From the NCBI GenBank assembly GCA_019242475.1, contig JAFAVK010000015.1, positions 1 through 64,000 of the forward strand: a stretch of DNA of 64,000 nt. The letters run 5' to 3'. The stretch is from Acidobacteriota bacterium (GTDB lineage Bacteria > Acidobacteriota > Blastocatellia > Pyrinomonadales > Pyrinomonadaceae). Both the position numbers and the translations under genes were made by a program. The notes beneath the pieces were generated by a model. That model made no database searches. It saw only the letters and a program-made list of their open reading frames with translations, and was not told where the DNA came from. Shown piece after piece: positions 2,687-56,423 of this stretch; positions within the stretch are counted from its first letter, which is position 1; each line of letters begins with the position of its first letter.

Positions 2687-2707
2687 GTAAGCAGTAAGCA
2701 GTAAGCA
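2687..2707 (+). repeat. Tandem heptamer GTAAGCA x3 at gene 3' end
   Basis: gtaagcagtaagcagtaagca immediately after stop codon. Confidence 0.85.
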
Positions 2708-2746
2708 GAAGGCGGCCGCGGGGCGTTAAGCTTCGCGGCCGCCTTC
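2708..2746 (+). terminator. Terminator-like hairpin
   Basis: gaaggcggccgcg...cgcggccgccttc followed by ttgtct. Confidence 0.65.
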
Positions 2747-2882
2747 TTGTCTCGAAAGAATAATCAAAACGTAACCCGGCGCGCGGGCGCCGGGTTTAAA
2801 GTGGAGCGTTTGCTTTTCGAGGCGTTCGTCCTCTTCTCTCTCTCCGCGAACACGTCTTTCAACTTACAGATGGAGTTTGACA

Positions 2883-3857
2883 ATGAGCATTGATGTGACC
2901 CGAGCTTTGCGTTTACTGACGGCGGCCTTCGGCCTGACGCTGGCGATGCTGCTGGCGCCGGCCGCCTTCGGGCAGGCGGCCGCCCCTTCTTCGAACAACC
3001 GAAGTCTGACGCAGGTCAACACGCGCCCCGTCCCCGTCGGCGCCAAGGTCAAGTTCCGCGGCGTCATCGTCCGCCGCGACGGGGACACCTTCATCGTCCG
3101 CGACGCGAGCCGCACCGACACGCAGGTGCTCCTGACCGACGAGACGAGCATCAAGTCGAAGGGCGGGTTCCTGAGGGGCGGCAAAAGTTACGCCGTGACG
3201 GACATCCTGACCGGCCTCATCGTCGAGGTCGAGGGGCGCGGCGACCGGCAGGGGCAGCTCGTCGCCGACAAGATCAGGTTCAACGACTCGGACATGCGCG
3301 CCGCCATCACGACCGAGACGCGCGTCGGCCCGGTCGAAGAGAATCAGTTGAGACTGTCGGGCCAGATCGACGAGCTGAGCGCGGTCGCCGACGAGGCGCG
3401 GCGCGAGGCGGCCACCGCGCAGGAGACGGCCAACTCGGCCCACGAGCGCATCTCCTCGCTCGACGACTACGACGTGCAGGATGAGACGGTCGTCAACTTC
3501 GCGCTCAACAGTGCCGTGCTCTCTCCGGAGGCGCGCCGGCAGCTCGACGACCTCGCGGCGAAGGTGAACGCCGCGCGCGGGTTCGCCATCGAGGTCTCGG
3601 GGCACGCCGACGCGACGGGCAGCGCGGCGCGCAACTTCCAGCTCAGCCAGCGGCGCGCCGAGGCGGTCGTGCAGTACCTCGCCGTCAACCACCACATCCC
3701 GATGCGCCGCTTCATCTCGCCGATGGGCTACGGCAAGACCGAGGCCGTCGCCGACAACTCGACCGCCGCCGGCCGCGCGCAGAACCGCCGCGTCGAGGTC
3801 AAGGTGCTCATCAACCGCGGCATGTCCCGGCCCGTCAACACCGCGCGCAACCCTTGA
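2883..3857 (+). CDS. OmpA family protein
   Basis: Signal peptide; C-terminal OmpA-like domain with EVSGHADATGSAARNFQLSQRRAEAVVQYL and NRRVEV. Confidence 0.85.
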   Translation: MSIDVTRALRLLTAAFGLTLAMLLAPAAFGQAAAPSSNNRSLTQVNTRPVPVGAKVKFRGVIVRRDGDTFIVRDASRTDTQVLLTDETSIKSKGGFLRGGKSYAVTDILTGLIVEVEGRGDRQGQLVADKIRFNDSDMRAAITTETRVGPVEENQLRLSGQIDELSAVADEARREAATAQETANSAHERISSLDDYDVQDETVVNFALNSAVLSPEARRQLDDLAAKVNAARGFAIEVSGHADATGSAARNFQLSQRRAEAVVQYLAVNHHIPMRRFISPMGYGKTEAVADNSTAAGRAQNRRVEVKVLINRGMSRPVNTARNP

Positions 3858-3868
3858 AGAATTTGAAA

Positions 3869-3896
3869 GTTCAAATTTGAAATTTGAAATTTGAAC
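3869..3896. repeat. Heptamer inverted repeat, GAAATTT family
   Basis: gttcaaatttgaaatttgaaatttgaac, 7-bp periodic palindrome. Confidence 0.8.
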
Positions 3897-3903
3897 TTAA
3901 AAG

Positions 3904-3949
3904 AAAGGCCGGGCGGACGCGAGTCTCTTAGTGTCCGCCCGGCCTTTTT
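3904..3949 (+). terminator. Rho-independent terminator
   Basis: aaaggccgggcggac...gtccgcccggccttttt. Confidence 0.85.
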
Positions 3950-4039
3950 GTATTCAATACCGCTAGACGCGCGCGCCTTCGGGAGTTAGGATGTGCGGCA
4001 CGTTCGTCCCAACGCCTACCCGCCCGAAGGAAAACGAAG

Positions 4040-54607: not shown

Positions 54608-54614
54608 TAAAAAA

Positions 54615-54679
54615 AGGACTGAGGACTGAGGGCTGAGTGGAAGACAAGGCTCGCTCTTCACTCAGCCCTCAGTCCTCAG
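54615..54679. repeat. GGACTGA heptamer inverted repeat between ilvC and ilvD
   Basis: aggactgaggactgagggctgag ... ctcagccctcagtcctcag. Confidence 0.9.
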
Positions 54680-54690
54680 CACTACGCCTT

Positions 54691-55707
54691 TCAGTTCTTC
54701 GCCTTATCAACCAACCGGCCGCCGCTGAGCCAGGGCATCATCTCGCGCAGGTTGCGGCCGACGTGCTCGATGGGGTGCTCTTCGGACTGGTGTTCGAGGT
54801 CGCGGAAGCGCGGCTTGCCGTTGCGGTTCTCGCGCATCCACTCGCGGGCGAAGGCGCCCGACTGAATCTCTGCGAGGAGGTGGCGCATCCTTCGCTTCGT
54901 CTCGTCGTTGACGACGACGGGGCCGCGCGTCATGTCGCCGTACTGCGCCGTGTTCGAGATCGAGTAGCGCATCTCCGAGATGCCGCCTTCATAAAGCAAA
55001 TCGACGATGAGCTTCATCTCGTGCAAGCACTCGAAGTAGGCCATCTCGGGCGCGTAGCCCGCCTCGGTCAAAGTCTCGAAGCCGGCCTTGATGAGCGCGG
55101 TCAGGCCGCCGCACAGGACGGCCTGCTCGCCGAAGAGGTCGGTCTCGGTCTCCTCGCGGAAGCTCGTCTCGATAATCCCCGCGCGGCCGCCGCCGATGGC
55201 CGAGGCGTAGGCGAGGCCGAGTTGTCGCGTGTCGCCCGTCGGGTCTTGATTAACTGCCAACAAACAGGGGACGCCCGCGCCGCGCGCGTACTCGGAGCGG
55301 ACGAGGTGGCCGGGGCCTTTGGGCGCGACCATGAAGACGTTCACGTCCTCGGGCGGCTTGATGAAGCCGTAGTGGATCGAGAAGCCGTGCGAGAACGAGA
55401 GGTACTTGCCGGGCGTCATCGACTCGGCCACCTCGCGCGCGTACACGTCGGCGGCCTGCTCGTCGGGGACGAGCATCATCACGATGTCGGCCTCGGCCGC
55501 CGCCTGCGCCACGGGCAGGACTTTGAGCCCCGCGCCTTCGGCCTTCGCGCGCGAAGGGCTGTCGGCCTTGAGGCCGACGGTCACGTCCACGCCGGAGTCC
55601 TTCAGGTTGTTCGACTGCGCGAACCCCTGGCTCCCGTACCCGATGACCGCGACGCGCCGCTCGCGCAGCGCCCCCACGTTCGCATCCCTGTCGTAATAAA
55701 CTTTCAT
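54691..55707 (-). CDS. ilvC: Ketol-acid reductoisomerase
   Basis: [28 protein letters not shown], Rossmann plus C-terminal knotted domain. Confidence 0.96.
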
Positions 55708-55725
55708 CGTAATTCCTTTCAAATT

Positions 55726-55851
55726 AGTAGGCAGTAGGCAGATGGCAGTAGGCAGTTAAGAGATTTCCAGCAATTGACGGTTAGGTTAAGAGCGGCTTTG
55801 TCCTTCAGGTGGAGCCGACTGCCTACTGCCATCTGCCTACTGCCTACTGCT
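55726..55851. repeat. GTAGGCA heptamer inverted-repeat pair between ilvN and ilvC
   Basis: Arms 55726-55760 and 55817-55851. Confidence 0.9.
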
Positions 55852-56335
55852 CTTCATTCGACACGCGGTTGATGGCGATGTAGCCGGAGCGCGTGATGTC
55901 GTTGATGCCGAGGGGGCGGAGCATCTCGATGAAGGCGTCCACCTTCTCGCGGTTGCCCGACGCCTCGATGAGCATGCGCGTGTGGGAGATGTCCACGACC
56001 TTCGCGCGGAAGACGGAGACTAAACTTAAAACCTCCTGGCGATTGGCGCCGGGCGTGGCCGAGACATCTATGAGCGCCATCTCGCGCTCGACGTGCGGCT
56101 GGCTCGTCACGTCGCGCACCTCGCGCACGCGCGCGAGCCGCTCGCACTGCTTGACGATCTGCTCGACCGTGCGGTCGTCGCCGCTCGTCACGATGGTCAC
56201 GCGCGACCACTCCGGGTCGAGCGTCGAGCCGACCGACAGCGTCTCGATGTTGAACCCGCGCGCGCTGAACAGCCCCACGATGCGCGACAACTCGCCCGGC
56301 TGGTCGGCGACGATGATGGAGAGCGTGTGACGCAT
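55844..56335 (-). CDS. ilvN: Acetolactate synthase small subunit
   Basis: ACT domain HTLSIIVADQPGELSRIVGLFSARGFNIETLSVG. Confidence 0.95.
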   Translation of the reverse strand: MRHTLSIIVADQPGELSRIVGLFSARGFNIETLSVGSTLDPEWSRVTIVTSGDDRTVEQIVKQCERLARVREVRDVTSQPHVEREMALIDVSATPGANRQEVLSLVSVFRAKVVDISHTRMLIEASGNREKVDAFIEMLRPLGINDITRSGYIAINRVSNEEQ

Positions 56336-56337
56336 AA

Positions 56338-56423
56338 GATGAGTGATGAGTGATGAATGATGAGTGATGAATGAAAGGCAAGCTGCCTCTTATTCATCAT
56401 TCATCACTCATCATTCATCATTG
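56338..56423. repeat. GTGATGA heptamer inverted repeat between ilvB and ilvN
   Basis: gatgagtgatgagtgatgaatgatgagtgatgaatgaaag versus tattcatcattcatcactcatcattcatcattg. Confidence 0.9.

Follow-up and report, generated by a model that had tools for sequence, protein, structure and literature searches.

The window analysed here, positions 1 to 64000 (64,000 nucleotides) of contig C94 in an Acidobacteriota genome (G000; 6.14 Mb, 67.6% GC, 91% complete), carries at many of its gene junctions inverted repeats whose arms are short tandem arrays of 7-bp units. These heptamer repeats are probably small mobile hairpin elements, the majority of them gene-less derivatives of larger elements that encode IVP, the 23S-rRNA intervening-sequence (IVS) or S23 protein (PF05635/TIGR02436), to which Pfam and NCBIfam assign a four-helix bundle. 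The elements share one architecture, enclose an IVP gene in their larger relatives, lie close to stop codons, are present at a junction in one genome and absent from it in another, replace one family by another, and are dispersed through the genome. Comparison was made with three congeners, G001, G002 and G003; L-numbers denote individual loci.

Tandem arrays in the window were called with Tandem Repeats Finder (TRF), which recovered the period-7 arrays at every position listed in an earlier sequence-only reading of this DNA except 48698. The latter is a genuine self-complementary GAAATTT-type sequence lying under the TRF threshold, and those at 2687 and 3869 are irregular members of the heptamer arrays. 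The 8-bp units of the same reading were recovered as period-8 arrays at 12678/12731 and 28367/28420, and the arm at 30173, described as solo, is indeed alone in G000, its G003 ortholog being a complete element. Chance level was set by dinucleotide shuffles of intergenic DNA, 672 kb of G000 having been split into coding and intergenic sequence. The 78.5 kb of intergenic DNA holds 130 period-7 arrays (about one of them an N-run) compared with 1.3 in the shuffles, so that the anticipated excess over shuffled sequence is confirmed; the 593 kb of coding DNA holds just five. There are six intergenic period-8 arrays. Periods 4–6 and 9–13 show no excess over the shuffles, and only period 14, a multiple of 7, and a few arrays of period 8/16 depart from them. 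An assembly artefact, which the earlier reading had named as a refuting outcome, is ruled out by the same architecture in three independent congeneric genomes and in complete cyanobacterial plasmid records.

A total of 111 tandem-armed inverted repeats were found in 0.79 Mb, extrapolating to about 860 per genome. Their arms have a median length of 31 bp and are about 94% complementary. The loops, originally put at a few to about 170 bp, have a median of 23 bp (10–90% range, 7–96 bp) and a maximum of 178 bp, the longest being those with a second element nested inside. The claim of many unrelated families with one common architecture is correct. In the largest family the variant units stand in a constant order, AGTAGGC, AGTAGGC, AGATGGC, AGTAGGC, AGTT (GTAGGCAGTAGGCAGATGGCAGTAGGCAGTT), at many loci and mirrored in both arms; this constancy indicates that the copies stem from one common element. 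The AGTAGGCAGTAGGC motif has 204 copies in G000, and its reversed control has none. Counts of the motif in three genomes of the same genus are 1, 12 and 430, and its distribution across the class is patchy. Named best hits to an IVP protein indicate, indirectly, that this class includes Pyrinomonadaceae-like Acidobacteriota.

Junction comparison between relatives, proposed earlier as a check, found both presence/absence and family switching in the congeners, whose flanks are 80–94% identical. Presence/absence is common among the 139 orthologous junctions compared, and at 22 of the 35 junctions occupied in both genomes the heptamer families differ. At gene 8 of contig C79, for example, G000 has 28 bp between the genes, and directly past the stop G003 has a GTAAATG element and G001 a GTAAACC element. 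The turnover is rapid partly because new elements insert into the loops of older ones: octamer ACACAGAG elements lie within GTAGGCA loops (window 28367–28449 and several G003 junctions), and in G003 a GTGCTGG element sits within GTAGGCA arms. The elements of the window, none of which is assigned a strand, are as follows.

2679..2745, irregular element, AGTAAGC x4 and then a GGCGGCCGCG stem, directly past the stop of gene 1199-2683; octamer ACACAGAG element in its place in G003.
3860..3897, AAATTTG-type self-complementary array; octamer-type element instead in the G003 ortholog.
6015..6206, GTAGGCA element at a convergent-gene junction, with other hairpins in its loop; missing from G003.
11402..11495, GATTTTT element; the same junction has GTAAATG in G003, AGCTGTT in G001 and AGTAGAC in G002.
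12680..12763, octamer element GACGGGGA; the same in G001, GTAAATG in G003 and G002.
15572..15652, AAAGTTC element; the same in G001, GTGACGA in G003, GTCTGGA in G002.
21452..21533, GTGATGA element that supplies the TGA stop of gene 20705-21463; GTGCTGG in G003, none in G001.
22697..22767, GTAGGCA element with 2.5 units in one arm and 4.7 in the other; G003 has the same family.
28297..28538, GTAGGCA element with the octamer element 28367-28449 in its loop; outer element alone in G003.
28367..28449, octamer element ACACAGAG inside the GTAGGCA loop, with GxxExxY-type arms.
30174..30204, lone GTAGGCA arm; full GTAGGCA element plus nested octamer element in the G003 ortholog.
34947..35098, GTAGGCA/AGATGGC element; a TAG within the arm is the stop of gene 34056-34958.
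35483..35561, GTAAACC element, an arm type that also encloses the IVP genes of G001 and G002; same in G002, GTGCTGG in G003, GTAAATC in G001.
48698..48735, degenerate GAAATTT palindrome; missing from G003.
52865..52931, GTAGGCA element, its loop similar to that of 22697-22767; same family in G003.
54615..54680, GGACTGA element; GTGCTGG in G003.
55726..55850, GTAGGCA element with the fixed unit order of the family; a GTGCTGG element is nested within it in G003.
56338..56422, GTGATGA element; AAGGATG in G003.

Some of these observations could also be produced in place, by slippage at gene ends from a seed that differs at each junction, with template switching copying the arm across the hairpin. 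Unit numbers vary between arms and between congeners, the same junction switches family, and the arms are highly complementary, all as such a process would have it. It is nonetheless very unlikely as the source of the elements: a fixed order of variant units recurs at many unlinked loci, families recur genome-wide and in other phyla, certain loops are common to several copies, filled and empty genomes show a clean split of adjacent genes, and heptamers hug stop codons whereas octamers do not. An origin by slippage only was rejected on the fixed unit order and the shared families. Between the two generators that the sequence-only reading had left open, the mobile element is strongly supported by dispersed fixed-order copies, by presence/absence and family switching at orthologous junctions, and by gene-bearing siblings; slippage is not supported as the origin but may alter unit numbers.

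It was noted beforehand that a larger relative might enclose a gene, either one of the four-helix-bundle/23S-IVS type or one for GxxExxY. G000 has exactly one PF05635 gene (L071), flanked by arms of the GTGATGA family; in G003 and G001 the same junction has a same-family inverted repeat with a short loop and without the gene. The arms around the IVP genes of the congeners are likewise those of local gene-less families, namely GTGCTGG, GTAAATG and AAGGATG in G003, AGCTGTT in G001, and GTAAACC in G001 and G002. The GTAAACC gene-less loop resembles, by eye, the 3' end of the element that bears the gene, which is the pattern expected from internal deletion. As in miniature inverted-repeat transposable elements (MITEs), short, dispersed, non-autonomous copies have the same terminal inverted repeats as elements that carry the gene, whether in the same genome or in a sister genome. 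The elements differ from MITEs in that a transposase is lacking, their termini are tandem heptamers, and target-site duplication is not visible at this flank identity; the enclosed gene in every heptamer element analysed is PF05635, and not that of a DDE/DEDD transposase.

The association extends well beyond the genus. Class-wide, PF05635 occurs in 136 of 162 genomes, with up to 17 genes per genome, and most of the 31 class loci inspected have period-7 arms whose heptamer differs locus by locus. More than 12 phyla are represented among 84 IVP loci, around which the median flanking inverted-repeat (IR) score is 16, compared with 9 for 170 random placements; 55 of the 84 lie beyond the 99% point of the null, with a best arm period of 7 at 50 of them and of 8 at four. 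On plasmids of Nostoc, Anabaena and Calothrix, S23 genes have the arms GGAGTCA, GGGAACA, GGGAGTA and AGGTGAC, which we take to be of the published kind of short tandemly repeated repetitive (STRR) sequence. In three Xanthomonas genomes an IVP gene lies within GGGAATC arms. The more alike two IVP proteins are, the more alike their heptamers tend to be (Mantel r = 0.21, p = 0.001), a correlation that common descent alone could explain. No relative of IVP was found among 50,697 phage records, though bacteria, and cyanobacterial plasmids too, often carry one, and no 23S motif was found in any locus retrieved.

Three of the IVP loci may be mentioned for their surroundings or size. On plasmids of Anabaena sp. 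90 (L230) and Pseudanabaena galeata (L234), an IVP gene with heptamer arms is flanked by cas6 and cas4 in a CRISPR-Cas locus, which in the former is annotated as type I-D. The IVP element of Vreelandella sedimenti (L149) has arms of about 200 bp made of near-perfect heptamers, with an IR score of 109, and has perhaps expanded recently.

A location at gene 3' ends, as first described, is right and can be stated more sharply: the elements begin at the stop codon. At co-directional junctions the arm starts at a median of 2 bp from the upstream stop (interquartile range, −5 to 6 bp). Where at least 60 bp is free, 82% of heptamer elements lie within 15 bp of this stop, compared with 14% for uniform placement; for octamer elements in the same genomes the figures are 9% and 10%, from only 11 elements. 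There are 167 elements among 604 co-directional junctions, 35 among 127 convergent and 10 among 146 divergent ones, and the convergent elements fill the space between the two stops. In the cross-phylum set, 66% of IVP elements begin no more than 15 bp from the stop that ends a long open reading frame (ORF; random placements, 7%), and with deposited annotations seven of eight cyanobacterial elements lie at −23 to +9 from the stop. All three frames are closed by the 5' arm in 74 of 151 elements and by the 3' arm in five of 151, an asymmetry for which the G-richness of the 5' arm accounts in large part. The cross-phylum stop content is 68, compared with 54.4 ± 3.9 in letter-permuted heptamers. 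In a post hoc comparison, the identity of the stop differed at 14 of 22 junctions gaining or losing an element and at 16 of 57 element-free junctions. Stops beyond the arm that continue the heptamer register number eight of 102, with 4.5 expected, which gives no clear signal of microhomology.

The closeness to stops, the near emptiness of divergent junctions and the predicted RNA hairpins, whose stability far exceeds that of shuffled sequence (z −6 to −12), would also suit devices of the 3' untranslated region (UTR), such as mRNA 3'-end stabilisers, attenuators or RNase III sites, that selection keeps at stops and for which mobility merely provides the raw material. We regard this as unlikely, though the least so of the alternatives. 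The sense strand shows no preference for G.U (99 G.U mismatches vs 97 A.C), and orthologous junctions are often empty or hold another family. In the window elements that were inspected no T-run comes after the arms, so these elements do not qualify as intrinsic terminators, and a separate terminator-like hairpin stands beyond the element at 3860.

The mobile-element reading can be drawn out as follows. Each family has its own heptamer, present both in the element with the gene and in the offspring without it, and elements come to rest within a few bases of stops at co-directional or convergent junctions. As 7 cannot be divided by 3, a stop triplet that recurs in every unit falls into a new frame each time and shuts several of them after a few units, so that translation still ends where an element has inserted at a stop or immediately ahead of it. 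IVP may bind the arms and, together with an enzyme of the host, mobilise in trans the copies that lack the gene, and RNase III may cut the transcripts between cistrons, as has been demonstrated for one 23S IVS.

Two other routes of movement were considered. Systems of repetitive extragenic palindromic (REP) sequences and their Y1/RAYT transposases have many intergenic palindromes near gene ends, and the hundreds of hairpins described here look similar. Mobilisation of single-strand hairpins in this manner is hardly credible, however, as PF01797 was not found in G000, G001 or G003, all of which have elements (genomes read at 91–94% completeness for both Y1 and RVT_1, thus 6–9% incomplete), the arms are tandem heptamers, and the enclosed gene is PF05635. 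A REP/RAYT assignment was rejected on these three element-bearing genomes without Y1. Alternatively, the hairpin RNA could be retrotransposed, with an Avd-like IVP bringing it to a reverse transcriptase (RT) acting in trans. Avd, a homologue of IVP, is required in the retrohoming of diversity-generating retroelements (PMC10053308), and an RT is encoded in G000 and G003. The IVP score against the Avd model NF033474 is 45.8 bits, below the cut-off of 80, which places it outside the Avd subfamily. The elements themselves contain no RT, however, certain IVP elements stand in antisense orientation to the host gene, and RVT_1 was found neither in G001 nor in G002, both of which have IVP genes and elements. 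We consider this route improbable, and dependence on an RT within the same genome was rejected on G001 and G002.

Several points weigh against the reading of the repeats as mobile, IVP-derived elements. It names no catalytic protein for movement, and IVP is not known to have enzyme activity. The extrapolated 860 or so elements in G000 are accompanied by one detectable IVP gene, and GTAGGCA, the commonest family of the window, is gene-bearing in our sample only outside the genus (L083, L086, L175). No target-site duplication is visible in filled/empty pairs, where the flanks diverge by 10–20%. Within the genus, L071 is the single filled/empty comparison with and without the gene, and gains and losses are unpolarised. 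The proximity to stops could be produced by selection and not by targeting. The parity of G.U and A.C mismatches lends no support to selection on an RNA hairpin. It should also be noted that the gene calls for Acidobacteria come from a home-made hexamer caller.

Among described systems the 23S IVSs of Leptospira, Coxiella, Xanthomonas and Brucella are similar in their terminal inverted repeats, which pair into a long stem, their optional S23p (PF05635) ORF, their sporadic distribution and their proposed mobile origin. In Coxiella the IVS has tandem GACAGAT heptamers beside the S23p ORF, and RNase III cleaves within the stem in vitro (PMC4990558). The window elements differ in being intergenic, at the stops of ordinary genes and not within a 23S or 16S rRNA gene, and in number, with hundreds of copies that are mostly ORF-less; those in the window are all gene-less. 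They behave like non-autonomous mobile elements and group with IVS-type/IVP elements in architecture, but because of their location they are not classed as 23S IVSs but as a stop-codon variant of that kind. The STRRs are, like the window arrays, intergenic tandem heptanucleotides, and arms of their kind surround the cyanobacterial plasmid S23 genes; to our knowledge they have been described as tandem repeats with no gene, inverted-repeat or stop-codon context. The Xanthomonas GGGAATC repeats are intergenic heptamers with 70–75 inverted pairs in two strains and generally no association with mobile elements (PMC4692102), whereas here their arms enclose an IVP gene. The intergenic TAACTGA heptamers of Beggiatoaceae occur mainly as direct repeats close to start codons (PMC4679880). 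A literature search, with most subscription journals and bioRxiv outside its reach, found no earlier link between an S23/IVP gene, heptamer arms and stop codons.

On balance we lean, somewhat cautiously, towards a hitherto unrecognised mobile class that spans prokaryotic phyla: heptamer hairpins that encode only an Avd-like four-helix-bundle protein and no transposase, are specific for stop codons and leave hundreds of gene-less copies. STRRs, the Xanthomonas GGGAATC repeats and S23p-type 23S IVSs would be members, a parallel octamer/nonamer class would encode GxxExxY, and movement would follow a new mechanism at the DNA or RNA level. STRRs, Xanthomonas G4 heptamers and 23S IVSs, each described on its own and left unexplained for decades, would then be joined by one gene and one architecture. 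Insertion at stop codons would be a rule for these repeat families, and the frame-shifting stop triplet a possible reason for the 7-bp unit. The function of the IVP/S23 and GxxExxY proteins becomes directly testable. It is further implied that selfish hairpins rewrite 3' UTRs in many bacteria faster than the neighbouring genes diverge.

The octamer elements are a second, parallel class tied to GxxExxY (PF13366), and in the genus they are not bound to stop codons. Thirty GxxExxY loci of the class (L243–L272) have inverted repeats of 8–9 bp period, with a median IR score of 20 vs 9, and their arms of type ACCACAGAG GACACAGAG (ACCACAGAG/GACGCAGAG type) are of the same sequence type as the nested octamer at 28367–28449. 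No PF13366 gene was found in the genus, and PF13366 was rejected as the heptamer partner, being missing there but present within octamer/nonamer arms elsewhere.

An Rfam scan of the window returned a single tRNA and nothing else. Other dispersed hairpins were seen in passing. A hairpin motif, AGCCCCGGAGGGGCGACATGTTTATAGC, occurs in GTAGGCA loops (window 6060–6165; a similar one in L038, 8557–8702) and is probably another dispersed family. ACAGGAT-type inverted repeats with units of about 9 bp, of the GGATTGACAGGATTAACAGGAT kind, form a further dispersed hairpin type (L034, 16050–16138; L069, 11661–11757). Positions 25797–25937 of the window hold a palindromic CCGGGAGCGCGGGCATCC family, with dozens of copies in G003 and several in G000 (L031, L033, L069), and positions 25999–26251 hold about ten copies of a partly palindromic 21-bp GCCGGCAAATGCCATCTGC-like repeat.

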